Part shown: positions 2,563-31,046 of the stretch, one piece after another | Layout of the letters: the number at the start of each line of letters is the position of its first letter | How positions within the stretch are numbered: position 1 is the first letter of the stretch | Source of the DNA: Runella rosea | GTDB lineage: Bacteria; Bacteroidota; Bacteroidia; Cytophagales; Spirosomataceae | Length of the DNA: 64,000 nt | NCBI RefSeq assembly: GCF_003325355.1 | Contig: NZ_CP030850.1 | Coordinates: forward strand, 4,953,501 to 5,017,500 | Direction of reading: 5' to 3' | The notes under the pieces: generated by a model | Told to the model about the DNA's origin: nothing | Seen by the model: only the letters and a program-made list of their open reading frames with translations | Databases searched by the model: none | Translations under genes and position numbers: made by a program

Positions 2563-3618
2563 ATGCAAAAAATACTTATAACGGGAGGAGCTGGTTTTAT
2601 TGGGTCGCATGTGGTACGACGGTTTGTAACGAGCTATCCCACCACCCAAATTGTCAATTTAGACGCCCTTACCTACGCTGGTAATTTAGCTAACCTGACG
2701 GATATAGAAAGCCAACCCAATTATACGTTTGTAAAAGGGGACATTACAGACGCGGCGTTTATTGATGAACTTTTCAAAACGCATGACTTTACGGGGGTTG
2801 TTCATTTGGCGGCCGAGTCGCACGTCGACCGTTCTATTTCTGACCCCATGGCGTTTGTGATGACCAATGTGATTGGCACGGTAAATTTGCTCAATGCAGC
2901 TCGTATTGCATGGAAAGGAAAAGAGGAAGGGCGACGTTTTTATCACGTTTCGACCGACGAAGTCTACGGAGAGCTTCACGACCCGAAGGAGTTTTTTGTG
3001 GAAACCACCAGCTATGACCCACGGTCGCCGTATTCAGCATCGAAAGCTTCTTCTGACCATTTTGTGCGGGCGTACCATAACACGTACAAATTGCCCGTGG
3101 TGATTTCTAATTGTTCCAACAATTACGGACCCAATCATTTTCCCGAAAAGCTGATTCCATTGATGATTAATAATATTCAGAACAACAAGCCGCTTCCCGT
3201 TTATGGAAAAGGTGAGAATGTTCGGGATTGGCTGTACGTCGAAGACCACGCACGCGCCATTGACTTGATTTACCATGAAGGTGTAAATGGCGAAACCTAT
3301 AATATTGGTGGTTGCAATGAGTGGAAAAATCTGGATTTGGTATTTCTGCTGTGTAAAGTGATGGATGAGAAATTGGGAAGGCCCGAAGGAACATCGGCTC
3401 AGTTGATTACTTACGTCACCGACCGTGCCGGCCATGATTTGCGCTATGCCATTGACCCGTCCAAGCTGATGAATGAATTGGGCTGGAAACCTTCGGTTAC
3501 ATTTGAAGAAGGACTGGAGAAAACCGTGCAATGGTATTTGGATAATCAAAAATGGCTAGAAAATGTCACTTCTGGCAATTATCAAAAATATTATGATGGG
3601 ATGTATGTAGACCGTTGA
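2563..3618 (+). CDS. rfbB: dTDP-glucose 4,6-dehydratase
   Basis: Converts dTDP-glucose to dTDP-4-keto-6-deoxyglucose, the first committed step toward dTDP-rhamnose and related deoxysugars. The 351-residue protein has the NAD motif TGGAGFIGSHVVRRF, the catalytic STDEVYGEL segment (Thr-Asp-Glu triad characteristic of dehydratases) and the YSASKASSDHF motif with Tyr and Lys. Later SNCSNNYGPNHFPEKLIP is strongly conserved in RfbB. It is co-directional with galE. The remaining rhamnose genes (rfbA, rfbC, rfbD) are not next to it, so the cluster is split in this genome. Confidence 0.95.
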   Translation: MQKILITGGAGFIGSHVVRRFVTSYPTTQIVNLDALTYAGNLANLTDIESQPNYTFVKGDITDAAFIDELFKTHDFTGVVHLAAESHVDRSISDPMAFVMTNVIGTVNLLNAARIAWKGKEEGRRFYHVSTDEVYGELHDPKEFFVETTSYDPRSPYSASKASSDHFVRAYHNTYKLPVVISNCSNNYGPNHFPEKLIPLMINNIQNNKPLPVYGKGENVRDWLYVEDHARAIDLIYHEGVNGETYNIGGCNEWKNLDLVFLLCKVMDEKLGRPEGTSAQLITYVTDRAGHDLRYAIDPSKLMNELGWKPSVTFEEGLEKTVQWYLDNQKWLENVTSGNYQKYYDGMYVDR

Positions 3619-3637
3619 TAATCAAGAAAACCGCAAC

Positions 3638-3669
3638 AAAAAAGAGAGCCCCTAGGAGCTCTCTTTTTT
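3638..3669. terminator. Bidirectional intrinsic terminator between rfbB and the large surface gene
   Basis: A 12-bp perfect stem (AAAAAAGAGAGC / GCTCTCTTTTTT) around an 8-base loop lies between two convergent genes. A-run and T-run flanks let it work on either strand, for rfbB on plus and the surface protein on minus. Confidence 0.9.
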
Positions 3670-3683
3670 GTTAGAAGCGGCAT

Positions 3684-6600
3684 TTAGATATTTTTTCCAG
3701 CCTTTTTGGTTTGTTTAATAGTAAACGGAACACAGATTTCTTCGGGGCAACAATTGTTGCCAGGCTCAATGATTACGGGGCAGCAGCCTTCAGCTGGGCA
3801 AGTATTATTGTTGGCGGTGAAGGTATACGTTCCTGTTTCAGTGAGTAAAACCTCATTTCCGCTGGCTATTGCGCTGGTTCCACCATCTTTAAACCATTGA
3901 ACATTCGTGTATTTAGCAGGGACGCTGACCTGCACTTTTTCCCCTACACACAACTTAAGAGGAACGGTAAAACACTGGCGATCAATGTCGTCTTCTCCTT
4001 CTTGGGCATTATTTGGGGTTGAATCTTTGTCTTTTTCGTTGGTTTTACTGATTTCGGCGGTGTTGAAATGAACACCTTCCTGCACGGCTTTTACCTTGTA
4101 GGTCAGAGTGACGGTATCGCCGTTGGCGGCAATGTTGCCAATGTCCCACTTAATGACATTATTATTAATGGAAGCCGTACCACGGGAAGCATTAAAAGAG
4201 CCATTAATAAATTGAATGCTGGTAGCAATGGAGTCGGCTACTTCAACACCCGTGGCATCGTTGGTAAATTCATTCCATACTTTGATGGTGTAAGTAAGAG
4301 TATCGCCAATGTGGGCGATTTTGGTGCTGATGCTTTTCTTTAAAGCCAAATCAACATCGCAATTCTGGGCCGAGACGATGACGGCGGTTCGGGGTTGATT
4401 GATACATTCCGGGGCACCTGTCAAGGCTACATAGAAAGTATCGGTAGCGCTTATGATACCAGTTGGTTTGAAAGAGAGCCCCGTTGCGAGTGCAGTCCCC
4501 CCTGTTGGGTTAGCGTACCAATTAGCCGTAACTCCGTTGAGATTGGTTCCGATAAGGATGATTTTGAGGGTAGGGAGCGTATCTCCGATACAGGCCGTGG
4601 CATTTGGTGTGAGCAGGTTAATCTGTGGGCAACTGCAATCGGGGGCAATAAAAGTGGTATCAAACACACAGTTGGCCCGTAGACTGTCGGTTACAATTAG
4701 ATTGGTTCCGTTGGGAATGCCTGTTACGGTGTAAGGGTTGGTTCCAGAAAGTGTACCCGCATTGACTTTTAAGCTACCATTTTTGTTAGCGATAGAGAAA
4801 CTAACGCTGTAGACAGCGGTGCTAGGTGAACAGATCGGGTTTGCAGTAAGCGTCCAAACAGGCTTGATACACGGGATAATCAAAGCAGCATCAATGGTTG
4901 GATTGTCTTTGTCGATTCCTGTTTCCAAAGTATTGATGTTGATGATTGGGCTTTCTGCCGAGTTTGGGTCAAAGTCGGAGTCGTTTGTGTCATTACCGCC
5001 ATTGCTAGTTACATCCTTTTTAGGGCTGATTTGGCAGGTATCTGGCAGAGAGTTAAGCACGATTTTGACTTTATAATTGCCTGAATCCAGACCTGAGAAA
5101 CCGTAGATTCCGTTGGTATCGGTAGTGTCGGTGGCCAGTAATGCGTCATTATTGTCACTGTTTAGCAGTTGTACAATTACCCCTTTCACGCCAGGCTCGT
5201 TGGCATCCTGCAAACCGTTATCGTTGAGATCTTTCCAGATAAAGTCACCGATACTTCCTTTGAGGCAGTTTTTAGTTTCGACGGCAACCGTATCGGCACA
5301 ACCTGTGGCTGAGTTAGTCAATATAAATTGATAGATACCGATTGCATCCATGCCTGTAACAATACCCGAGGTGGGGTCGATGGCAACTGTTTTTGGGGTA
5401 CTTCCGAGCTGAGTCCAAGTTTCACCACTGGCGGCATTAGGTAGATCGACACTGGCAACGGTGTTACAAATGGCGTTGCCACCTGTAATATCAGCGCCGG
5501 CAATGGGTTTAGCACCCACTGTTATCTGTACCGTGTCTGTACAGCCATCCACGGTGTAAATAAACTTAAAGATTCCTGAAGTATTTGTGGCAAAACTTAC
5601 ATTGGCAACACCAGCGATAGTGCTTCCCAAAGTGGCACCCGAGGGATTAGCAGGATTGGATTGGGCCGTCCAGCTACCTGTTGTTGGGCCAGTACCAGTC
5701 AGAGTTGCACTTGTTCCAGCGCAAACTGTTTGCGAATTTCCTGCGTTGGGTTTAGGCTTCACAGTGATGGCAACGTAAGCTGTATCCGAACAGGTTGGGC
5801 TGTTGCTTTCGCCAACAACGGCATAGTATCTGGTTACGCCGTCGGCCGTCGGCAATTGAGCGGCACTCGGTGTAAAGGTGGTTGAAGTCGCACCCTGGAT
5901 AGCTGTTCCTAAGGAGGTAGCTGGTAAGTTATTGGCAATAGGACCGTACCATTTCTGCGAACTGACCGTTCCAGAAGTAATATTCATTGTAAAAGCACCG
6001 GCTGTCTCTCCCTGACAAAGTATTTGCGCTGAAGTGGCCGTAATCACGGGCGTTACGCATTCCGTTATACCAATGTCCAATGTATGATTGTTTTCACCAT
6101 AGCTGCCTGTCGTATATGATATGGTAGCATCAGGGTTTATGTCGCTGTCTAGTCCATCGGTTGTTGCATCTTTTGTGCTAAAAGCCGTACAGGTTGCCAG
6201 TGCTCCAGCTCCCAAGGCTGTTTTTACTTTGATGGTGTAGGCGGTAGTAGGCAGCAGTGTGGTATCTGCTCCTGTGCCAACCCAAGCACTGCCTAGGCGG
6301 CTCTTACTGCTAAAATACCAAGTTCCGGTTTGTCCGGCTACGGTAGCAGTTGTAACCGTAGCAAGCAAGGTTGCTCCTTTATAGAGTTCAATTTCAACGC
6401 CGTTGATACCATCTTCACCTGCATCCTGAATCCCATCATTATCACTGTCTTTCCAAACTCGGTTACCAATTTCGAGAGGAGCTGGATTACAGAGTAGCTC
6501 AGGATCTCCCAGTCCACCTGCTTTACCAAAGTATTGTGGGTTGTCAGTTGCATTAGGAACAATGAGATATTGATCTGTTTTCGCGCCTGTCGAAGTATTG

Positions 6601-9039: not shown

Positions 9040-11985
9040 TTAGAGGGTTTTCCCTGCTTTTTTGGTTTGTTTGATGGTAAAAGGTACGCATAAATCTTCG
9101 GGGCAGCAATTGTCGCCAGGTTCGATAATGATGGGACAACACCCTTCGGCGGGGCAGGTATTGTTAAGTGCTTTAAAAGTATACGTACCGGTTTCGCTCA
9201 ACAATACTTCGTTGCCAGTTGCCACGGGTTCGGCAGTGCCAGTTTTAAACCATTCCACCCCCGTATACTTAGCAGGGACGCTCGCCTGAACTTTTTCGCC
9301 GAAGCAAAGTTTTATTGGAACCGTAAAACACTGGCGATCCAAATCATCCTCTCCTTCCTGAGCATTATTGGGGGTTGAGTCTTTGTCTTTTTCGTTGGTT
9401 TTGCTGATTTCGGCGGTGTTAAAATGAACACCTACTTGCATAACTTTTATTTTATAGGTCAGCGTGACGGTATCACCGTTGGCGGCAATGTTTCCGATGT
9501 TCCACTTAATGACATTATTATTAATGGAAGCCGTACCACGGGAAGCATTAAAAGAGCCATTAATAAATTGAATGCTGGTAGCAATGGAGTCAGCTACTTC
9601 TACACCAGTCGCATTGTTGGTAAATTCATTCCATACTTTGAGGGTGTAAGTGAGGGTATCACCGATTTGCGCAACTTTGCTACTTATTTCTTTTTTGAGT
9701 GCTAAATCTACTGGATAATCGGCAAATCCTGCGTCGGCTTTAAAATCATTTTGGCCAGCGCCGCCAGTAGTAAATGTAAATGTCAAGTTGGCTCCGGCCT
9801 CTTCAAAGTCAGAATCTATATTTTCGGTAGAGCTATTTGGAGTAGTAGGACGAAAACCAAGGAGAGCGGTTTGGGTAGCAAAATCGCCGATTTTAAGGAT
9901 GTATTTAGTGTCTGTTTTAAGGCCAACTTTGTACTTAACATAAGAAGGTCCATCCGAAACCGTTGCTGATGAGAAGTAATATTGGCCTCCGTTGGCGGAT
10001 TGTACGCTGGCTAAGGCGGTGCCGTTTGAATCGCAAAGTGTAACTATTACGCCGTCAATCCCAATCTCATTGGCATCTTGTATTCCGTTTTTATTTTTAT
10101 CCCACCATATTCTGTTGCCGATTTCGATGGGCTGCGGTGCGCACAAAATTTCCAAATCGCCTAAACCATTTGCTTTTCCGAACCCAAATACGTCGTCAGT
10201 ATATAAAATGGCACCTCCGTTGGGGTTTGGCTCCTCTCCTGTAGCATTTCCATCTTTATTTCCATTTGAATTAATAAGGCGTTTGATTCCTCCTGCATTG
10301 GGTACATCAGTGGGGTTAATAGCGGTCATAGCGAGTTTTCCACTACCTGCTAAAAGAGCTAGGCCTGCTTGAGAACTCATTTCATGGTTGCTTCCGTCTT
10401 GAGAACGGTCTCCCCAATAGTATTTTCCTCCACCGATGCCAGGCATACTCATTTGTTGAATTGAAGCCGTACTTCCACAAACCGAACCATTGTTTTCAAT
10501 AATCCACGTCCCGTTGGGGCCGCATGGGCCCGCCCGTAAAATTTCTCCCGGGCCGATAACAGTTACAAAATTGGTGTCATTTGCAATAGGGAATCGATTG
10601 TTAAATCCCATTTGATCGGCAAAACGGTCTCGGAGGCCAATAATCATGGAACCGTCAACATCAAACTCAATGTCGGTGAGCCAGGCTTGTGGATAAGTCG
10701 TAAAATTATTGTCTCTATCGGGGACCAAATAAGGAAGTGGAATCCAGGGACGCCATTTTTCACCCCTTGCGTCGGTGGTGGGGATGTCAGCGTTGGAGGC
10801 ACCTTTTAAATAAGTAAGTGGAAAGCTGAGTACTTGCGTAAAGGTGCCATTTTCGAAAGCATAAACGGTGGCGGCCAGCCCAGTGGTGTCGCTTTTATCG
10901 AGCGCATCTTCGCGGGTACAAACTACGCCTATGTATACTTTATTCCTATAATATTTAGTCGCAAACGGGCGATAACTTTGCCCATTGCAGGGGTTTGGGA
11001 TGAGGTACGAAATGGTGTCTTTTGTAGCAATATCCAAAGCATATAGTCTTCGATTGTTTAGATTGGTCAACCAAAGGGTTTTCCCATCATCAGAAATATC
11101 CAAATCACCAATACCAACTTTCCCTACGGCGTCGTATGCTGGAATATCATAACTGTCGAGGCGAGCATTTGGCGTAATACTGTCGGGAACATCAGTGTGC
11201 ATGTCAACGCCTGCTACCGAACCCAAGTTAAAAAACTCAGTGGTAGTGGTATCCGAGTTTCCAAGGGTTGTGACAAAAATAGCCCCTGGCCCCTGTTCTG
11301 CAAAACCGACATGACGTTTGGTAAAAGCGGCGGTGAAAATTTGGGCGGTTTCGCGTTTGTAAGCAATTCCCCAAACAGAGCCTAGGTCTTTTACAAAAGC
11401 ATAATGTGAGACAACCTTGGTGGTGTCAATTACTTCAAATGGTACTCCTACCAATATATCAAGGTTACCGAGGGGAGTAGTGGCAGCATTGACGGATACA
11501 AAGCAGGTTGTCACCAATTGGGGGTTGTCTGTATCGCAATAATGATTCGGATAATTAATTCCTAAATTAATACCAGTGGAATTTCCGCTGACAAACTGAA
11601 CCGAAGTATTGCTTCCGATTGGATTAAAGGGACCGTCGTAGTCGCTTACGGGGAAATCCTTGAATTCTACACGCAGCGTATCCGAACTAGACGTATTGGT
11701 GAGCGTGTAGGAGCCGTCGGTGGCGGTGCGTGTCGAGTCGGCCAGTGAGCCATCCTTCTTATAAGCACAAATCAAAATACCTTTTACACCTATTTCGTTA
11801 AAGGTAGCGGTGTTTGTTTTAAGTCCATCGGCGTTAAAGTCCCGGTAGACAATTCCCTGGATTGTCTGTGCTTCTACCGATGTTCCTATTAAACAGCAAA
11901 GAAAAGCACACTGAACTAGGTGAAAAACAACAAAACGCAGCCCCTTCACGCCTTTGGAGAGTGCATACTCGTACAAAGCCCCCAT
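9040..11985 (-). CDS. Secreted SdrD-B / DUF11 multidomain protein, paralogue of the 3684 gene
   Basis: A 981-residue exported protein. The signal region is FVVFHLVQCAFLCCLIG, ending around VEAQ. It has an N-terminal SdrD-B-like domain (IVYRDFNADGLKTN), a central propeller-like region with several Asp/Asn-rich turns (DISDDGKTLWLTNL), an SdrD-B domain near residue 620 (IGNRIWWDKNKNGIQD), a DUF11 domain near 758 (VDLALKKEISSK) and the same Cys-rich tail as its neighbour (CCPEDLCVPF). It is shorter than the paralogue because the Ig-like middle is missing. The frame extends to a TTG at 12027, but a promoter box overlaps that codon, so ATG 11985 is chosen. Probably a surface adhesin or matrix protein; the ligand is unknown. 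Confidence 0.85.
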   Translation of the reverse strand: MGALYEYALSKGVKGLRFVVFHLVQCAFLCCLIGTSVEAQTIQGIVYRDFNADGLKTNTATFNEIGVKGILICAYKKDGSLADSTRTATDGSYTLTNTSSSDTLRVEFKDFPVSDYDGPFNPIGSNTSVQFVSGNSTGINLGINYPNHYCDTDNPQLVTTCFVSVNAATTPLGNLDILVGVPFEVIDTTKVVSHYAFVKDLGSVWGIAYKRETAQIFTAAFTKRHVGFAEQGPGAIFVTTLGNSDTTTTEFFNLGSVAGVDMHTDVPDSITPNARLDSYDIPAYDAVGKVGIGDLDISDDGKTLWLTNLNNRRLYALDIATKDTISYLIPNPCNGQSYRPFATKYYRNKVYIGVVCTREDALDKSDTTGLAATVYAFENGTFTQVLSFPLTYLKGASNADIPTTDARGEKWRPWIPLPYLVPDRDNNFTTYPQAWLTDIEFDVDGSMIIGLRDRFADQMGFNNRFPIANDTNFVTVIGPGEILRAGPCGPNGTWIIENNGSVCGSTASIQQMSMPGIGGGKYYWGDRSQDGSNHEMSSQAGLALLAGSGKLAMTAINPTDVPNAGGIKRLINSNGNKDGNATGEEPNPNGGAILYTDDVFGFGKANGLGDLEILCAPQPIEIGNRIWWDKNKNGIQDANEIGIDGVIVTLCDSNGTALASVQSANGGQYYFSSATVSDGPSYVKYKVGLKTDTKYILKIGDFATQTALLGFRPTTPNSSTENIDSDFEEAGANLTFTFTTGGAGQNDFKADAGFADYPVDLALKKEISSKVAQIGDTLTYTLKVWNEFTNNATGVEVADSIATSIQFINGSFNASRGTASINNNVIKWNIGNIAANGDTVTLTYKIKVMQVGVHFNTAEISKTNEKDKDSTPNNAQEGEDDLDRQCFTVPIKLCFGEKVQASVPAKYTGVEWFKTGTAEPVATGNEVLLSETGTYTFKALNNTCPAEGCCPIIIEPGDNCCPEDLCVPFTIKQTKKAGKTL

Positions 11986-24278: not shown

Positions 24279-24309
24279 TTGCCCCCCGTTTACTACCATT
24301 GTACCTTTG
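24279..24309 (+). promoter_or_regulatory. Promoter of the ebo operon
   Basis: A TTG element at 24279-24281 and TACCTTTG at 24302-24309 are separated by 20 bases. This matches the full Bacteroidota sigma-A consensus TTG-N19/20-TAnnTTTG. The predicted start is near 24315, with a leader of about 32 nt before eboA. It is the best full promoter match in the window. Confidence 0.75.
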
Positions 24310-24346
24310 TAACGAAAGTTAAAAGTAAAGTAACGCAAAAATCAGT

Positions 24347-25225
24347 ATGTTAACTCAGATAAATAGTCTTCTTTGGGAACTCCTTAGCGCGCAGCTGACG
24401 ACCTCAGAGGCGGATTGGCTGGCAGCGAAGGGAGAAGCTGAACCGTTGGAATTGATGACGGCTTTTGTGGCGGCGCCCCGCTTTTTGGCCAAACGCACGG
24501 TGAAGCCAACGGTGCAACAGACGATAGAATTAAACGAGATTCTACCTGGATTTTCGGTGGAAGATTGGGGTATTGTACGGCTGAGCCGCGTGTGGTTGTT
24601 GAGTTGTTTGGAGGCCGCCGATAAAGAAGAATATTGTCGTCACATTGAAACGCTTTTTGACACCGCCGAAATGAACGAGCTAGTGGCGCTCTACTCGGCG
24701 CTTCCAGTGTTGAATTACCCCGAAAAATGGCTTTTCAGAGCAACTGACGCTGTACGTTCCAACATGGGAGTAGTGTTTGATGCCATTGCCTTACGAAATC
24801 CGTATCCGACAAAATATTTTACAGAACTGGCTTGGAATCAGCTCGTACTCAAAACCATATTCAACGATAAACCTATTCATTTTATCGTAGGGTTGGACGA
24901 ACGGGCCAACGAGAATTTGGCCCTTACACTTTCTGACTTTGCCCACGAACGCTGGGCGGCGGGCAGGATGGTAGCGCCACAGGTGTGGCGATTGGTGAGT
25001 AAATTTTTGAATGAAGAACTTCTCTCCGATATGGAGCATCTCTTTAAGTCACCTTCAATCCACGACCAGCAGGCGGCCGCTCTTACTTGCCATCATTCAG
25101 CGTATGAACCCGCGAAGCAATTGCTTGCCAATTACCCTGATTTGGAAAAAAATGTCCACCATAACCTATTGACTTGGACCCACCTTGAATTTATTGATCT
25201 TAATACTTATGTGCCTAACCGATAA
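24347..25225 (+). CDS. eboA: EboA family protein, first gene of the ebo cluster
   Basis: A 292-residue soluble protein with no signal peptide and no membrane segment. It resembles EboA by position, size and sequence character (helical, repeat-like, e.g. VEDWGIVRLSRVWLLSCLEA; late NEELLSDMEHL). No catalytic motif is visible; EboA has no defined activity. It is the promoter-proximal gene of eboABCDEF and overlaps eboB by 17 bases, which suggests translational coupling. In cyanobacteria the ebo genes are needed for a scytonemin precursor to reach the periplasm (family knowledge). The substrate here is unknown. Confidence 0.8.
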   Translation: MLTQINSLLWELLSAQLTTSEADWLAAKGEAEPLELMTAFVAAPRFLAKRTVKPTVQQTIELNEILPGFSVEDWGIVRLSRVWLLSCLEAADKEEYCRHIETLFDTAEMNELVALYSALPVLNYPEKWLFRATDAVRSNMGVVFDAIALRNPYPTKYFTELAWNQLVLKTIFNDKPIHFIVGLDERANENLALTLSDFAHERWAAGRMVAPQVWRLVSKFLNEELLSDMEHLFKSPSIHDQQAAALTCHHSAYEPAKQLLANYPDLEKNVHHNLLTWTHLEFIDLNTYVPNR

Positions 25226-26228
25226 AGATTTAACGCAGAATCCCTCCCACTTTGAGGAGACGGATGAGATTGTCACCCATCGCGATATGGGCTGGGACGA
25301 TTACCGAGAACTGATTCGTGGAATGCGCTTTTTTGACCCGCATATTCACATGGTTTCCCGGACAACTGATGACTACGAAGCCATGCGTGATGCGGGCATC
25401 GTAGGATTGATTGAGCCCGCTTTTTGGGTAGGTCAACCCCGTACTGGACTTTCTACTTTTAAGGACTATTACAGCAGTTTGGTGGGCTGGGAGCGTTTTA
25501 GGTCGTCGCAGTTTGGGATTAAGCATTATTGTACCATTGGGCTCAATTCGCGTGAAGCCAACAACGAACCCCTGGCGGAGCAAGTGATGGAGATTTTGCC
25601 ACTGTACTTATATAAAGAAGGCGTTGTGGGCGTGGGAGAAATTGGTTTTGACGACCAAACCGCCGCCGAAGAAAAATACTATCGTCTTCAGTTGGAGTTG
25701 GCAAAAAAAGCGAAACTGCCCGTACAAATCCATACCCCGCACCGCGACAAGAAAAAAGGAACGGAGCGAAGCATGGCTATTGCCCTCGAACACGGCCTTG
25801 ACCCGTCGTGGGTGATTGTGGACCACAACAACGAAGAGACTGTAAAGAGCGTATTAGACCAAGGTTTTTGGGCGGCGTTTACCATTTATCCTTTTACCAA
25901 AATGGGCAACGAACGAATGGTAAAAGTAGTGGAACATTATGGACCGAATCAAATCATGGTTAATTCGGCCGCTGATTGGGGGATTTCTGACCCGCTGGCG
26001 ATTCCTAAAACCGCCGCTTTGATGAAAATGCGTGGCATTCCAGACGAAACCATTCGACTCGTAACCTACCAAAATGCGATTGATGCCTTTGCCAAAAGTG
26101 GCCAAATTGACGTAAGTGATTTTGAAAATGGCCTCAATGTAGACCAAAGTGAGAAGTTTAACGGGAATACCATTTTACGCGGTGGTCAGCAACCCCGCGT
26201 TGCCAAAGATTCTTTAGTAATTCGATAA
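25209..26228 (+). CDS. eboB: EboB, TatD-family metal-dependent hydrolase
   Basis: A 339-residue TIM-barrel hydrolase of the TatD/amidohydrolase superfamily. The metal ligands are all present in order: DPHIH near the N-terminus, the Glu in GVGEIGFDD, His in PVQIHTPHRD, His in VIVDHNNEE and Asp in SAADWGISDP. It therefore looks catalytic; the substrate is not known for EboB. ATG 25209 is chosen over the TTG at 25185 further inside eboA. An internal ATG at 25287 is possible but would remove charged N-terminal sequence. Only 1 base separates it from eboC. Confidence 0.85.
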   Translation: MCLTDKDLTQNPSHFEETDEIVTHRDMGWDDYRELIRGMRFFDPHIHMVSRTTDDYEAMRDAGIVGLIEPAFWVGQPRTGLSTFKDYYSSLVGWERFRSSQFGIKHYCTIGLNSREANNEPLAEQVMEILPLYLYKEGVVGVGEIGFDDQTAAEEKYYRLQLELAKKAKLPVQIHTPHRDKKKGTERSMAIALEHGLDPSWVIVDHNNEETVKSVLDQGFWAAFTIYPFTKMGNERMVKVVEHYGPNQIMVNSAADWGISDPLAIPKTAALMKMRGIPDETIRLVTYQNAIDAFAKSGQIDVSDFENGLNVDQSEKFNGNTILRGGQQPRVAKDSLVIR

Positions 26229-26229
26229 C

Positions 26230-27099
26230 GTGAGCGTGATAAAACCATACCTGCAACTTACCCGCCCCGCCAATATCATCACGGCCATTGCTGATATATT
26301 GGCTGGAATGGCCATTGCTCAATTTACGTTTGGAGCAAGTCCCGCGTATTGGTTGGTACTTTCTACCGTGGGTCTATACGGTGGTGGGGTGGTGATGAAT
26401 GATGTATTTGACGCTCAACTGGATGCCATTGAGCGTCCAGAGCGGCCCATTCCAAGCGGTAAAGTGCCCTTGCGCTCGGCGGCTTTTATGGGTCTTTCGT
26501 TGTTGGTTTTAGGGGTAGTTTCGGCAGTACTTTTCAGTACATTGAGCGGGGTAATCGCCCTTGTAGTGGCACTATTGGCCATTTTATACGACCGTTATGC
26601 CAAGCACAGTGCAGTCTTTGGGCCATTGACGATGGGATTTTGCCGGGGTGGGAATCTACTTTTGGGCATAAGCGCCGTTAGTCCGTCGTTGTCCGAATGG
26701 GGGTGGTTGGCGTTGGTGCCGATTGCCTACATTGGCGCCATTACACTCATAAGTCAGGACGAAGTTCACGGTGGCAAGCGCCGTTCGCTTTATATTGCGG
26801 CATCTCTCTATACCACGGTTCATGCCATTCAGTTTTTGGTGGCGGTCAATGAAGGAAACGGGACAATGGCGTTGTTGCTCATTGTGCTGCATGCCCTGAT
26901 GGTAGGGCGTCCTTTGTGGAATGCGTTCCAAAATCCGATTGGGCCCAACATTGGAAAAGCGGTAAAAGCGGGTGTACTTTCTCTTATTGTAATGAATGCT
27001 GCCTGGTGCATTGCCTTTGGGAACTGGCCCGTGGCACTTGGTGTTCTTTTATTACTTCCATTATCCATACTGTTAGCCCGTATATTTGCGGTAACCTAG
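26230..27099 (+). CDS. eboC: EboC, UbiA-type membrane prenyltransferase
   Basis: A 289-residue integral membrane protein with about eight to nine helices (e.g. SLLVLGVVSAVLFSTLSGV, ALVVALLAILY). The UbiA prenyl-diphosphate motif NDVFDAQLDAIERPERPIPS is near residues 57-76, and the second, weaker motif region is YDRYAKH. UbiA enzymes attach an isoprenoid chain to an acceptor. In the ebo model a lipid-linked intermediate could carry a metabolite at the membrane (inference). The start is GTG at 26230, directly after eboB; no ATG fits better. Confidence 0.85.
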   Translation: MSVIKPYLQLTRPANIITAIADILAGMAIAQFTFGASPAYWLVLSTVGLYGGGVVMNDVFDAQLDAIERPERPIPSGKVPLRSAAFMGLSLLVLGVVSAVLFSTLSGVIALVVALLAILYDRYAKHSAVFGPLTMGFCRGGNLLLGISAVSPSLSEWGWLALVPIAYIGAITLISQDEVHGGKRRSLYIAASLYTTVHAIQFLVAVNEGNGTMALLLIVLHALMVGRPLWNAFQNPIGPNIGKAVKAGVLSLIVMNAAWCIAFGNWPVALGVLLLLPLSILLARIFAVT

Positions 27100-27113
27100 C
27101 GAATTTTAAACTT

Positions 27114-28280
27114 ATGCAGACCCTACAACAATCATTTCAGGTTCCTTATACCTATTCCATTTTTTTTACCAAAGGACTGTTTGACCCACAGAATAATACA
27201 ATAAGGAGCTTTTTTAATTCCTTTGGTGAGGCTGGTTTTCAACGTAAAGCACTTTTTGTGATTGACGGTGGCTTTTTGGCGTATTATCCTACGCTTGAAA
27301 AAGAGATTGCTGCTTATTTTGCTACGCTGGGAGATGCGGTAAAATTAGTGCCTGACATCATCGTGCTGCCCGGTGGAGAAGCTGCCAAAAATGACCCAGC
27401 CTTATTTGATAAAATTGTAGAAGCCATTGACGAATACGGCATTGACCGTCATTCGTTTGTCATTGGCGTAGGCGGAGGGGCGATTTTGGATTTAGTGGGC
27501 TACGCCGCTGCCGTATCGCACCGTGGGGTGAAGCACATTCGGATTCCGACCACCGTTCTTTCGCAAAACGACTCGGGCGTTGGGGTGAAAAACGGGATTA
27601 ATTACCAAGGAAAGAAAAACTTTTTGGGGACGTTTGCGCCGCCCGTAGCGGTTTTTAACGACCTTTCTTTTTTGCAAAGCCTCGACGACCGTGATTGGCG
27701 CTCGGGGATTGCCGAAGCTATAAAAGTGGCTTTAATCAAAGATAAAGCCTTTTTTGAGTGGATAGAGGCCAATGCCGAGGCCCTTGCCCACCGCAATGAA
27801 GAGGTGATGGCTTATCAGATTCACCGTTGTGCCGAAATGCACGTTGAGCATATTCGTAGCGGCGATCCGTTTGAGTTTGGCTCGTCGCGTCCGTTGGATT
27901 TTGGACACTGGGCGGCGCATAAACTGGAATATCTCACTGATTTTCAGATTCGCCATGGCGAAGCAGTTGCCATTGGAATTGCCTTAGACAGCGTGTATTC
28001 AGTCAAAGTGGGGAGATTGAGCCACGACGAATTGCAACGAATTTTGAATGTTATTCAAAAACTCGGCTTTGATTTGTACCACCCTAAACTCGCCGAAAAT
28101 GACAAAATCAACCTTCGCAATGGCCTGCGGGAATTTCGGGAGCATTTGGGCGGCCGCCTAACCATCATGCTGCTCGACCGAATCGGTAAAGGTGTGGAAG
28201 TCCACGAAATGGACGCCGACCTCATTGCCGAAGCCGTAGATTATTTGGAAGGGCATTATTCGAGTTTGTTGATGAGTTAA
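27114..28280 (+). CDS. eboD: EboD, 3-dehydroquinate-synthase-like sugar phosphate cyclase
   Basis: A 388-residue NAD- and metal-dependent cyclase related to AroB and to 2-epi-5-epi-valiolone synthases. The NAD loop is VIGVGGGAILDLVGYAAAV. The metal ligands fit GIAEAIKVA (Glu), LDFGHWAAHKLE (His) and IRHGEAVAIGIA (His). The AroB block NLGHTFGH is replaced by RPLDFGHW, and the lysine-rich substrate loop reads KNGINYQGKKNF, so the product is probably not dehydroquinate. ATG 27114 lies 14 bases after eboC; the longer frame overlapping eboC is a shadow. A 185-base gap with a hairpin separates it from eboE. Confidence 0.85.
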   Translation: MQTLQQSFQVPYTYSIFFTKGLFDPQNNTIRSFFNSFGEAGFQRKALFVIDGGFLAYYPTLEKEIAAYFATLGDAVKLVPDIIVLPGGEAAKNDPALFDKIVEAIDEYGIDRHSFVIGVGGGAILDLVGYAAAVSHRGVKHIRIPTTVLSQNDSGVGVKNGINYQGKKNFLGTFAPPVAVFNDLSFLQSLDDRDWRSGIAEAIKVALIKDKAFFEWIEANAEALAHRNEEVMAYQIHRCAEMHVEHIRSGDPFEFGSSRPLDFGHWAAHKLEYLTDFQIRHGEAVAIGIALDSVYSVKVGRLSHDELQRILNVIQKLGFDLYHPKLAENDKINLRNGLREFREHLGGRLTIMLLDRIGKGVEVHEMDADLIAEAVDYLEGHYSSLLMS

Positions 28281-28343
28281 TGCGCTCATTAGCAGTAATT
28301 TTTGAAATAATTATTGGAAAGCCGGCACATACTTTTATTGCTT

Positions 28344-28405
28344 AAAAATTACTTTGTCACCCTGTAAGGGCCTTGAGGCGCTAATGGGGTGACAAAGTAA
28401 TTTTT
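28344..28405. repeat. Large perfect hairpin between eboD and eboE
   Basis: A 19-bp perfect stem (AAAAATTACTTTGTCACCC at 28344-28362 with its complement at 28387-28405) around a 24-base loop. A T-run is built into the 3' arm, so it could end or pause transcription inside the operon, or protect upstream mRNA. No second copy was noticed in this window. Confidence 0.75.
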
Positions 28406-28465
28406 GACCAGCCGTCACTTTATTGATGATATCGGTATTCCAAACCATTTCCTACATAAACCAAT

Positions 28466-29659
28466 ATGCAAACCCCACACGGACACCTCACTTATTGTAG
28501 CAATATTCACCCTGGCGAACGTTGGGATGAGCATTTTAAGACTTTACAGGATAACCTGCCGTTTATTAAAAATCAACTTTCGTCCAATGCGCCTTTTGCT
28601 TTAGGTTTGCGCCTGGCCAACGATGCCTCTATTGAACTCACCAATCCTGAGCGACTGGCAGAATTCAAAGCATGGTTGGCCGCTAATGATATTTATGTAT
28701 TCACAATGAACGGTTTTCCCTACGGAGGCTTTCACGCCACGCGGGTAAAAGACGATGTACATACGCCCGATTGGACGACTACAGACCGCACCGAATACAC
28801 CAAACGCCTCTTTAAAATTTTAGTACAACTGTTGCCCGATGGCATGGAGGGTGGTGTTTCTACCTCTCCGTTGTCGTACCGATATTGGTGGCAGGGCGAA
28901 GAAGAGACCCAGCAAGCTATCAAAATTGCCACCGAAAATATTCTTCAAGTGGCCGAAACTTTGATAGAACTTCGCCGTACTACGGGTAAGGTAATGCACC
29001 TCGACATTGAACCCGAGCCTGATGGGATTTTGGAAAACGGACAGGAATTTATCGACTGGTACGCCGATTATTTTTTACCGAAGGGCATCGCTCATTTGCA
29101 AGAAACCCACGGTTTTTCGCCCGAAGATGCCAAAGAAGCGCTGCTGACGCATATTCAGCTGTGCTACGACGTCTGCCATTTTGCGGTGAGCTATGAAGAG
29201 CCACAAACCATTGTCAATCAATTGAATGAATTGGGTATCCGCGTCGGAAAAATCCAAATCAGTTCGGCCATTAAAATTGATTTACGAGGAAACAGAGAGG
29301 AAAAATTAAAAGCGATTCAGTCGTTTGACGAGCCTGTGTATTTGCACCAGGTGGTTGCCAAAAACATAGACGGCACTTTTCAGAAATACCGCGATTTACC
29401 AGAAGCTTTAGCGGCAGATACCAATCAACAAACAGAGTGGCGTATTCACTTTCACGTACCGCTATTTATTGAATCGTATGGCTTACTTGATTCTACCCAA
29501 GGTGACATCGTAAACACCCTCAACGTACAACAAGCCACGCCTTTTACGCAGCATTTGGAAGTAGAAACCTATACGTGGGGTGTATTGCCCGCCGATATGC
29601 AAAAGCAAATCGGTGAGTCGATTGTGCGGGAATTGGAGTGGGTGCGTGGGCAATTGTAG
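28466..29659 (+). CDS. eboE: EboE, xylose-isomerase-like TIM-barrel protein
   Basis: A 397-residue cytoplasmic protein of the xylose isomerase-like TIM-barrel superfamily, matching the EboE family. It starts MQTPHGHLTYCSNIHPGERW, a conserved opening in which His residues may bind metal. Further metal-site candidates are HLDIEPEPDG (Glu pair), CYDVCHFAVSYE (Asp/His) and KIQISSAIKID. No reaction is known. It follows eboD after a hairpin-bearing gap and is 19 bases before eboF. Confidence in the cluster role is high from gene order; the chemistry is not known. Confidence 0.85.
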   Translation: MQTPHGHLTYCSNIHPGERWDEHFKTLQDNLPFIKNQLSSNAPFALGLRLANDASIELTNPERLAEFKAWLAANDIYVFTMNGFPYGGFHATRVKDDVHTPDWTTTDRTEYTKRLFKILVQLLPDGMEGGVSTSPLSYRYWWQGEEETQQAIKIATENILQVAETLIELRRTTGKVMHLDIEPEPDGILENGQEFIDWYADYFLPKGIAHLQETHGFSPEDAKEALLTHIQLCYDVCHFAVSYEEPQTIVNQLNELGIRVGKIQISSAIKIDLRGNREEKLKAIQSFDEPVYLHQVVAKNIDGTFQKYRDLPEALAADTNQQTEWRIHFHVPLFIESYGLLDSTQGDIVNTLNVQQATPFTQHLEVETYTWGVLPADMQKQIGESIVRELEWVRGQL

Positions 29660-29678
29660 TTTATTAGATTTTAAAAAC

Positions 29679-31046
29679 ATGCAAAAAACCGTCGTCATAG
29701 ATATTGTAGGGTTGAGTGCCAACCTGTTGGGAGAACATACTCCTTTTTTGAGTAAATACGTTAAGGGTCGTCATATTACGCCTATTAAACCCGTTTTGCC
29801 TGCCGTTACGACCACATCTCAAAGTTGCTATGTAACGGGAAAATGGCCTTCAGAACACGGTATTGTGGCCAACGGCTGGTACGACCGCGACGACGCCGAA
29901 GTAAAGTTTTGGAAGCAGTCCAATAAACTCGTGAAAGCCGATAAGATTTGGGACGCGGCCAAAAAGCAAGACCCGTCGTTTACCTGCTCCAAAATGTTTT
30001 GGTGGTACAACATGTATTCTACTGCCGATTATTCCGTTACGCCTCGCCCCCAATACCACGCCGATGGCGTGAAAGCACCTGATTGCTACGCCTATCCTGC
30101 AAGTCTGCGTGATGAATTGCAGAAGGATTTAGGACAATTTCCGTTGTTTAACTTTTGGGGCCCCAACGCCAACATCAAATCAACGAAGTGGATTGCCGAT
30201 GCGTCGATGTGGGTGGACAACAAACATAACCCTACGCTTACGCTCATTTATCTGCCGCATTTGGACTATTGTTTACAAAAATTCGGCCCTGATTTCTCCA
30301 AAATTAGCAAAGAATTAAACGAAATAGACCAGATTGTGGAGGAGTTGGTGCGGTTTTACGAAGCCAAAAACACCAAAATTATCTTACTTTCGGAGTATGG
30401 CATCAACGCTGTTAATCGGCCCGTTCACATCAATCGGATTTTGCGTGAAGAAGGCTTGATTGCGGTTCGTACCGAACGTTGGTACGAACTTTTGGATGCT
30501 GGCGCTTCCAAAGCCTTTGCCACTGCCGACCATCAGATTGCGCACATTTACCTAAACGACCCATCGGTAAAAGAGCAAGTGAAAAAGCGGCTGGAACAGA
30601 CGCCGGGTATCGAAATGGTGTTGGACGAAGCAGGCAAAAAGGCCCATCATCTCGACCACGAACGTTCGGGCGATTTGGTTGCGGTAGCTGCTCCTGACAG
30701 TTGGTTTACTTATTATTACTGGTTCGACGACGCCAAAGCCCCCGATTATGCGCATTTGGTCGATATTCACCGCAAGCCCGGTTATGACCCCGTCGAGATG
30801 TTTATGGATCCTAAAAATCCATTTATTAAATTGCGGGCAGGTTATAAGCTGGGGCGCAAGTTGCTGGGTTTTAGATATTTAATGGATGTTATCCCCTTGG
30901 ATGCTACCTTGGTCAAAGGCTCGCATGGGGGCATCAGCGCACCCAAAGAATTTTACCCGATTTGCGTCACTGATCAACCGTTACCCAAAAAAGAATTGGA
31001 AGCGGTGGAGGTGTATGATGTGATTTGGGAGCATTTGGTTTCTTGA
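29679..31046 (+). CDS. eboF: EboF, alkaline phosphatase / nucleotide pyrophosphatase family protein
   Basis: A 455-residue member of the NPP/alkaline phosphatase superfamily. The first metal Asp is in VVIDIVGLS, the nucleophile region is AVTTTSQSCYVTGKWPSEHG, the next Asp/His pair is in YLPHLDYCLQKFGP, and the last His is in GSHGGISAPK. The middle metal motif, usually SDHGM, here reads SEYGI. There is no signal peptide, so it looks cytoplasmic. The longer frame starting inside eboE is a shadow; ATG 29679 lies 19 bases after eboE. It may remove or form a phospho-linkage on the exported metabolite (inference). Confidence 0.85.
   Translation: MQKTVVIDIVGLSANLLGEHTPFLSKYVKGRHITPIKPVLPAVTTTSQSCYVTGKWPSEHGIVANGWYDRDDAEVKFWKQSNKLVKADKIWDAAKKQDPSFTCSKMFWWYNMYSTADYSVTPRPQYHADGVKAPDCYAYPASLRDELQKDLGQFPLFNFWGPNANIKSTKWIADASMWVDNKHNPTLTLIYLPHLDYCLQKFGPDFSKISKELNEIDQIVEELVRFYEAKNTKIILLSEYGINAVNRPVHINRILREEGLIAVRTERWYELLDAGASKAFATADHQIAHIYLNDPSVKEQVKKRLEQTPGIEMVLDEAGKKAHHLDHERSGDLVAVAAPDSWFTYYYWFDDAKAPDYAHLVDIHRKPGYDPVEMFMDPKNPFIKLRAGYKLGRKLLGFRYLMDVIPLDATLVKGSHGGISAPKEFYPICVTDQPLPKKELEAVEVYDVIWEHLVS

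Follow-up and report, generated by a model that had tools for sequence, protein, structure and literature searches.

The 64,000-nucleotide stretch of the Runella rosea chromosome analyzed here (hereafter the window) holds a complete, canonical eboABCDEF operon, and in Bacteroidia this operon is likely tied in function to TMEM220, a small family of membrane proteins without known function. The six ebo genes follow the published order in one direction and occupy positions 24347–31046 of the forward strand, as placed by the list of open reading frames (ORFs) and by profile searches. The operon is ordinary for its group. Its gene set and gene order, the families of its proteins, and their conservation are shown here. 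Two points add to published knowledge of ebo: TMEM220 as a companion, which is previously unreported and makes the family a candidate seventh ebo component, and an altered metal site in EboF. No paper in open PMC full text pairs TMEM220 with ebo or scytonemin (subscription papers and supplements lay outside this scope), and "TMEM" is absent from the main text of PMC5133447.

TMEM220 as a companion of the ebo operon

When the non-ebo neighbors of 80 named ebo loci are clustered, TMEM220 is the only family among the clusters shown that recurs at the operon edge, and it does so across ten labels (seven genera and three labels of metagenome-assembled genomes [MAGs]). The next cluster, short-chain-dehydrogenase-like as judged by eye, covers six labels at scattered distances. 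Other inserted or neighboring genes were rejected as functional clues, this being the sole recurrence at the operon edge. All four members tested match PF15071 with 77–90 bits against a cut-off of 27. TMEM220 lies upstream of eboA in 22 of the 80 loci, co-directional in 14 (∼8–137 bases) and divergent in 8 (∼83–623 bases; distances were counted to the tblastn start and are approximate), and downstream of the operon in one more. Our TMEM220 model, built from the linked copies, does not find every Pfam match: of 45 loci expected to have one, it recovers 39. Widening it to E 0.01 raises the count from 23 to 24 of the 80 loci. One Segetibacter MAG (L136) carries two TMEM220 copies, at 3305–3688 and 11196–11576, that flank a single ebo operon.

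Presence of TMEM220 correlates with presence of EboE in samples of the class (396 genomes), the phylum (198), and relatives of the host (59), which overlap in genomes and are each a single draw. Across the 396 Bacteroidia, 29 have EboE, 61 have TMEM220, and 28 have both, such that TMEM220 occurs in 28 of 29 EboE-positive versus 33 of 367 EboE-negative genomes (Fisher test, P = 7.6e-25). Collapsed to genera, the counts are 17 of 18 versus 12 of 177. The phylum sample gives 13 of 16 versus 13 of 182, the relatives 36 of 37 versus 4 of 22, and within one family (f19) the split is complete (5 of 5 vs. 0 of 8). The sole member of the Runella genus without EboE (G005) also lacks TMEM220; its genome of 4.3 Mb is the smallest among the 13 members listed.

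Physical linkage is stronger evidence for the tie than co-occurrence. In 11 of the 28 double-positive Bacteroidia, from five families, TMEM220 and ebo are at most 12 kb apart on one contig (P = 7e-18, assuming a 24-kb target in each 4-Mb genome). Eight examples were retrieved. TMEM220 precedes eboA in four (L187, which has a second weaker match, and L189–L191) and follows eboF in two (L184 and L185), the order is B-C-D-E-F-TMEM220-A in L186, and TMEM220 is inverted beyond eboF in L188. The gene is linked to ebo at three different co-directional operon positions. In a tree of 77 TMEM220 rows, well-supported branches force at least five changes of the "linked" label, although this short tree has poorly resolved parts and a bootstrap that had not settled, and some of these changes may be losses.

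In Runella, TMEM220 is unlinked to ebo (G000:C1:2362772-2363062). A gene that by eye resembles a polyprenyl-diphosphate synthase adjoins it in 8 of 12 loci of the genus (L148, L162, L163, L164, L166, L170, L171, and L172). Neighborhoods of unlinked TMEM220, comprising 15 regions of 8–10 kb (13 from EboE-negative genomes and two from EboE-positive ones, G373 and G400) and 30 short loci of relatives, have no recurrent partner of clear meaning. A TonB-receptor-like ORF, named by eye, is found in five of them, and other clusters are limited to related genera.

The Ebo proteins and their operon

Features of the operon are listed by window position, strand, and description:

24279–24309, +, Bacteroidota-type promoter-like site TTG-N20-TACCTTTG, a pattern read in the sequence
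24347–25225, +, eboA, ATG start; 292 aa, all-helical protein
25209–26228, +, eboB, ATG start; 339 aa, TatD-like metal-dependent hydrolase
26230–27099, +, eboC, GTG start; 289 aa, UbiA-like membrane prenyltransferase
27114–28280, +, eboD, ATG start; 388 aa, sugar phosphate cyclase, distinct from housekeeping AroB
28342–28407, +, terminator- or attenuator-like hairpin in the eboD–eboE gap, from folding energy and genus comparison
28466–29659, +, eboE, ATG start; 397 aa, xylose-isomerase-like TIM barrel
29679–31046, +, eboF, ATG start; 455 aa, alkaline-phosphatase-family protein with an altered metal site

The original prediction, made from the DNA letters alone, had read this stretch as a complete eboABCDEF set in conserved order in a Cytophagales-like genome, which family profiles, the order in 71 of 80 named loci, and the Runella relatives bear out. 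It had also proposed a profile search of all six proteins, and the outcome differs among them. EboC (NF035940, 407.5 bits, cut-off 250), EboD (NF004852, 580.8 bits, cut-off 333), and EboE (NF035939, 517.9 bits, cut-off 250) pass their models, those of EboC and EboE being equivalogs; a failure of EboE to match its family had been named as grounds for refutation. EboA passes the EboA-domain model (NF035938, 182.7 bits, cut-off 50), which assigns the locus to the eboA rather than the eboG type, but is below the cut-off of the stricter EboA-family model (NF035937, 224.4 bits, cut-off 320). EboB (PF01026, 54.1 bits, cut-off 27) and EboF (PF01663, 212.5 bits, cut-off 23) have broad family matches only.

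Judged from its residues, EboF is strictly conserved yet is not a canonical two-zinc phosphodiesterase. Its alignments to ENPP4 (E 5e-07) and ENPP1 (9e-05) are weak matches in which Thr44, at the position of the nucleophile, and Asp196 are kept, whereas Gln200 replaces a His and Glu239-Tyr240 replace an Asp-His pair. We take the replaced positions (H, D, H) to be zinc ligands in ENPP, and D, T, D, H, D, H, H to be the two-metal ligand set of nucleotide pyrophosphatases/phosphodiesterases, a set that EboF lacks because of Gln200, Glu239, and Tyr240. Compared with the structures 4lqy and 6wet of that group, EboF shares PF01663 and the Thr but differs at the same His, Asp, and His. T44, D196, Q200, E239, Y240, and H416 are present in all 80 aligned EboF rows (H416 is kept, though it lies outside the coverage of the ENPP alignments shown), and position 8 varies among D, N, and L. 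The three replacements recur in six of six plasmid copies (Bacteroidota, Deinococcota, Alpha- and Betaproteobacteria) and in nine further Bacteroidota copies. Since three zinc-ligand positions are invariantly changed, the label "NPP-type phosphatase" given to EboF in the original prediction is doubtful, and the site cautions against assigning phosphodiesterase chemistry from a family name. The protein is needed in Nostoc: eboF is among five single ebo deletions made there, and every ebo deletion mutant is scytoneminless (Klicki 2018, PMC6282210).

EboD differs from housekeeping 3-dehydroquinate synthase (DHQS), as its substitutions and a second gene indicate. The host genome (7.16 Mb) has a separate AroB-like gene elsewhere, 35% identical to EboD over the match, whose product retains the DHQS-type Lys and Asn. 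EboD has His243 and Asp262 where aligned DHQS sequences have Lys and Asn, respectively. We take these to be the active-site residues K250 and N268 in A. nidulans numbering, and their replacement sets EboD apart from AroB, even though NF004852 is still named "3-dehydroquinate synthase" in NCBIfam. Among sugar phosphate cyclases, ValA (4p53) belongs to the same family, aligns over most of the length of EboD, and shares the Asp at position 262, but has Pro at the position of His269.

The AlphaFold model of EboE (pLDDT 92.1) is a TIM barrel whose nearest structures by Foldseek place it with the xylose-isomerase-like barrels: SCO6571, IolI (1.0e-05), AsbF (1.0e-05), Art22 and YcjR (1.2e-05 each), and sugar 3-epimerases. 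E182, D235, H238, and E365, candidates for the E-D-H-E metal quartet of such barrels, are invariant in alignments of 11 and 56 rows (the latter, used for the model, being the window plus 55 of 80 loci). As modeled, EboE is nearest to inositol and keto-sugar isomerases, and a keto-cyclitol or keto-sugar substrate fits these neighbors.

EboA is modeled as nearly all helix (pLDDT 94.9; alignment of 69 rows, the window plus 68 of 71 ORFs). Foldseek finds no significant match in the Protein Data Bank (PDB), so we limit the description to "all-helical": the best E is 0.24, and HEAT/ARM-type proteins are frequent among the non-significant matches. Sequence profiles of EboA and EboE likewise have no significant match among PDB sequences. 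In EboB, H45, H47, E144, H175, H178, H206, and D256 are each kept in 68–72 of 72 aligned rows, in agreement with what we take to be the TatD-like ligand set (HxH, E, H, H, D). EboC has the Asp-rich motif DxxDxxxD at residue 58, plus Y50 and R139, and among EboC ORFs from the named loci 67 of 69 have the motif; motif and equivalog score both identify a prenyltransferase. EboB-type proteins cluster apart from true TatD (PMC5133447).

The predicted 17-base overlap of eboA and eboB and the 1-base gap between eboB and eboC are exact. The promoter-like site proposed for the operon is present, but as stand-alone proof it was rejected, since the window has 14 matches to TTG-N17-23-TANNTTTG (nine on the plus and five on the minus strand). 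Of 12 Runella-genus loci, nine keep the −7 part no more than 60 bases from eboA, and six keep the whole pattern. All six genes are co-directional as predicted, but a single uniform transcript is questionable because the 185-base gap between eboD and eboE contains a hairpin with a 24-bp stem and a T-rich 3' arm (minimum free energy −42.2 kcal/mol, z −7.2, for 28330–28420). Six of the 12 genus genomes have the same hairpin, three have a different one, and three, with a gap of 15 bases, have no room for any. That the hairpin is a dispersed repeat was rejected, as a search of both strands of the genome matches its own place only. The hairpin is absent from the output of the consensus terminator scan, whose stated limits exclude loops as long as this one (over 8 bases), and the window pattern scan lists no strict promoter pattern within the gap. 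The hairpin may be a terminator or attenuator that tunes eboEF, suggesting partial termination and a partial uncoupling of ABCD from EF; probably it lowers or separately tunes eboEF expression.

A model of ebo function and its alternatives

How mostly soluble enzymes aid passage across a membrane is the puzzle of ebo, and TMEM220 is a concrete candidate for the membrane partner. In the Nostoc ebo mutants studied, among which eboD is not represented, the scytonemin monomer is made but not moved to the periplasm (Klicki 2018, PMC6282210). Metabolite traffic, as originally predicted, is a role reported for Nostoc, and passage to the periplasm in Runella is proposed by analogy. Nostoc punctiforme has counterparts of A, B, C, E, and F by family name, but its eboD is outside the cluster proper and its ebo genes are tied to scytonemin (PMC6282210). 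The prenylated, cyclitol-linked product of the original prediction is not a new idea, an isoprenoid-cyclitol having been proposed already (Yurchenko 2016, PMC5133447), and a prenylated aromatic product is also possible.

The best explanation overall, to which we give a probability of about 0.55, is a prenylated cyclitol-type membrane helper for metabolite passage with TMEM220 as its partner in Bacteroidia. EboD would form a keto-cyclitol by cyclizing a sugar phosphate; the published proposal, sedoheptulose 7-phosphate, is the probable substrate. EboE, a metal-dependent barrel of isomerase/dehydratase type, and EboB, of metal-dependent hydrolase type, would reshape it, and EboC would attach an isoprenoid chain in the membrane. 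All-helical EboA may hold the Ebo enzymes together, and EboF, whose site is non-canonical, may work without a pair of zinc ions. Once prenylated, the product would act in the membrane as a helper with which a cytoplasmic metabolite crosses to the periplasm, in line with the Nostoc proposal. The partner of the operon in Bacteroidia would be TMEM220, whose gene adjoins ebo in some lineages and has a separate chromosomal site in Runella; no other candidate is as good for the membrane component missing from the known Ebo proteins. The parts of this model differ in strength. The identity of the operon is close to certain, and a functional link to TMEM220 is likely. The cyclitol chemistry is tentative and falls a little short of even odds. 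We lean slightly toward TMEM220 being a true seventh component in Bacteroidia, a membrane partner to which the product passes or by which it is moved, and toward EboF having a rebuilt, non-classical active site. The family has no known function and, according to a paper listing, is also present in humans; its tie to ebo provides a first way to approach it genetically.

Several observations weigh against the model. TMEM220 is not an absolute requirement: four genomes have EboE without TMEM220 (G221, the only such case in the class sample; G052, 94% complete in 720 contigs; G174; and G226), and the 33 EboE-negative Bacteroidia with TMEM220 are the converse. No TMEM220 is found in the 17-kb stretches around ebo on six plasmids, also by the widened model; one of these records is from Bacteroidota, and the five from other phyla are those on which TMEM220 was assessed outside Bacteroidota. 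TM-scores of the EboE structural matches are ∼0.5 by query length, and no cyclitol is named among the acceptors of EboC relatives in the available sections of PMC9235831. A control family, DUF2157, is enriched with EboE as well (7 of 16 vs. 22 of 182, P = 0.003), less strongly than TMEM220, implying that part of the co-occurrence is background of genome size or lifestyle. That TMEM220 and ebo co-occur only as joint markers of large free-living genomes is nonetheless improbable: a second control, DUF1275, is flat (6 of 29 vs. 62 of 367, P = 0.38), and the linkage in 11 genomes at three co-directional positions and the complete split within family f19 also argue against it.

Another possibility is that the end product of the operon is itself a prenylated, secreted secondary metabolite of aromatic or quinoline type and that traffic is limited to cyanobacteria. 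Relatives of EboC from Algoriphagus machipongonensis, Maribacter, and Zobellia farnesylate 8-hydroxyquinoline-2-carboxylic acid in vitro, and of 14 aromatic acceptors these Ubi-297/EboC enzymes convert 6, with quinoline acids the best of them (PMC9235831), which is why an aromatic product is possible. A. machipongonensis belongs to Cytophagales. The window EboC is in the same family, has the DxxDxxxD motif, and is 48% identical to that of Algoriphagus boritolerans, the species used for comparison; a like activity of the Runella enzyme is a prediction. Also in favor is a homologous gene pair that immediately precedes ebo in Aureibacter tunicatorum (Bacteroidota; L178:1046-4106) and Mycetohabitans endofungorum (Betaproteobacteria; L183:2054-5072), with identities of 40% and 38%: a ferritin-like gene (PF12902), which we take to be VioB kin, preceded by a gene of ∼600 aa with no Pfam match. 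The pair is possibly an ebo-dependent product pathway common to two phyla. However, the Nostoc mutants make the monomer and fail to move it (PMC6282210), and by eye no evident quinoline or polyketide gene is among the listed window ORFs around ebo, so we consider a secreted end product unlikely. Rather unlikely, too, is that the six genes form two units, with the upstream promoter serving ABCD and a separate start serving EF. The stability, T-rich arm, and conservation of the D–E hairpin argue for two units, but the genus genomes with a 15-base gap, the short D–E gaps in many loci of other genera, and the negative terminator and promoter scans argue against them.

Gene order and surroundings of ebo in relatives

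A search with EboE finds matches in 37 of the 59 genomes, that of the window included. The best named relative of EboE is from Runella aurantiaca (97%), a species of the same genus as the host. Regions were retrieved for 33 of the other 36. Within the retrieved stretches, 27 have all six ebo genes, two have D-E-F only, and four, all order-level relatives (L050, L053, L066, and L067), have eboE as the sole ebo gene within ∼13.7 kb, the rest of those genomes not having been searched. Gene order is A-B-C-D-E-F in 71 of the 80 named loci, D-E-F in seven, C-D-E-F in one, and E-F in one (EboD counts exclude ORFs of 420 aa or more). Five of these nine incomplete loci are truncated because their contigs are short or end there; in the other four, from Spirosoma and Fibrisoma, 8 kb upstream are without A–C. 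The prevalence of ABCDEF places the operon in an already known type, an order described as ancestral in Bacteroidetes (Yurchenko 2016, PMC5133447). The ebo loci of Bacteroidetes, cyanobacteria, and eustigmatophyte plastids in that paper share the six genes, their order and direction, and the eboA type; the Runella locus differs in its D–E gap with hairpin and in its surroundings.

A comparison of flanking genes, suggested with the original prediction, was informative in two ways: besides TMEM220 at operon edges, it revealed conserved surroundings in the Runella genus, where moaC precedes ebo in 11 of 11 retrieved relatives and argD follows it within the retrieved stretch in 8 of 11. Five Chitinophaga loci (L102, L104, L119, L143, and L144) have a 2.4–3.5 kb insert on the opposite strand between eboC and eboD, with ORFs that by eye resemble a TPR-type sensor and a response regulator (sensor-like only in L104).

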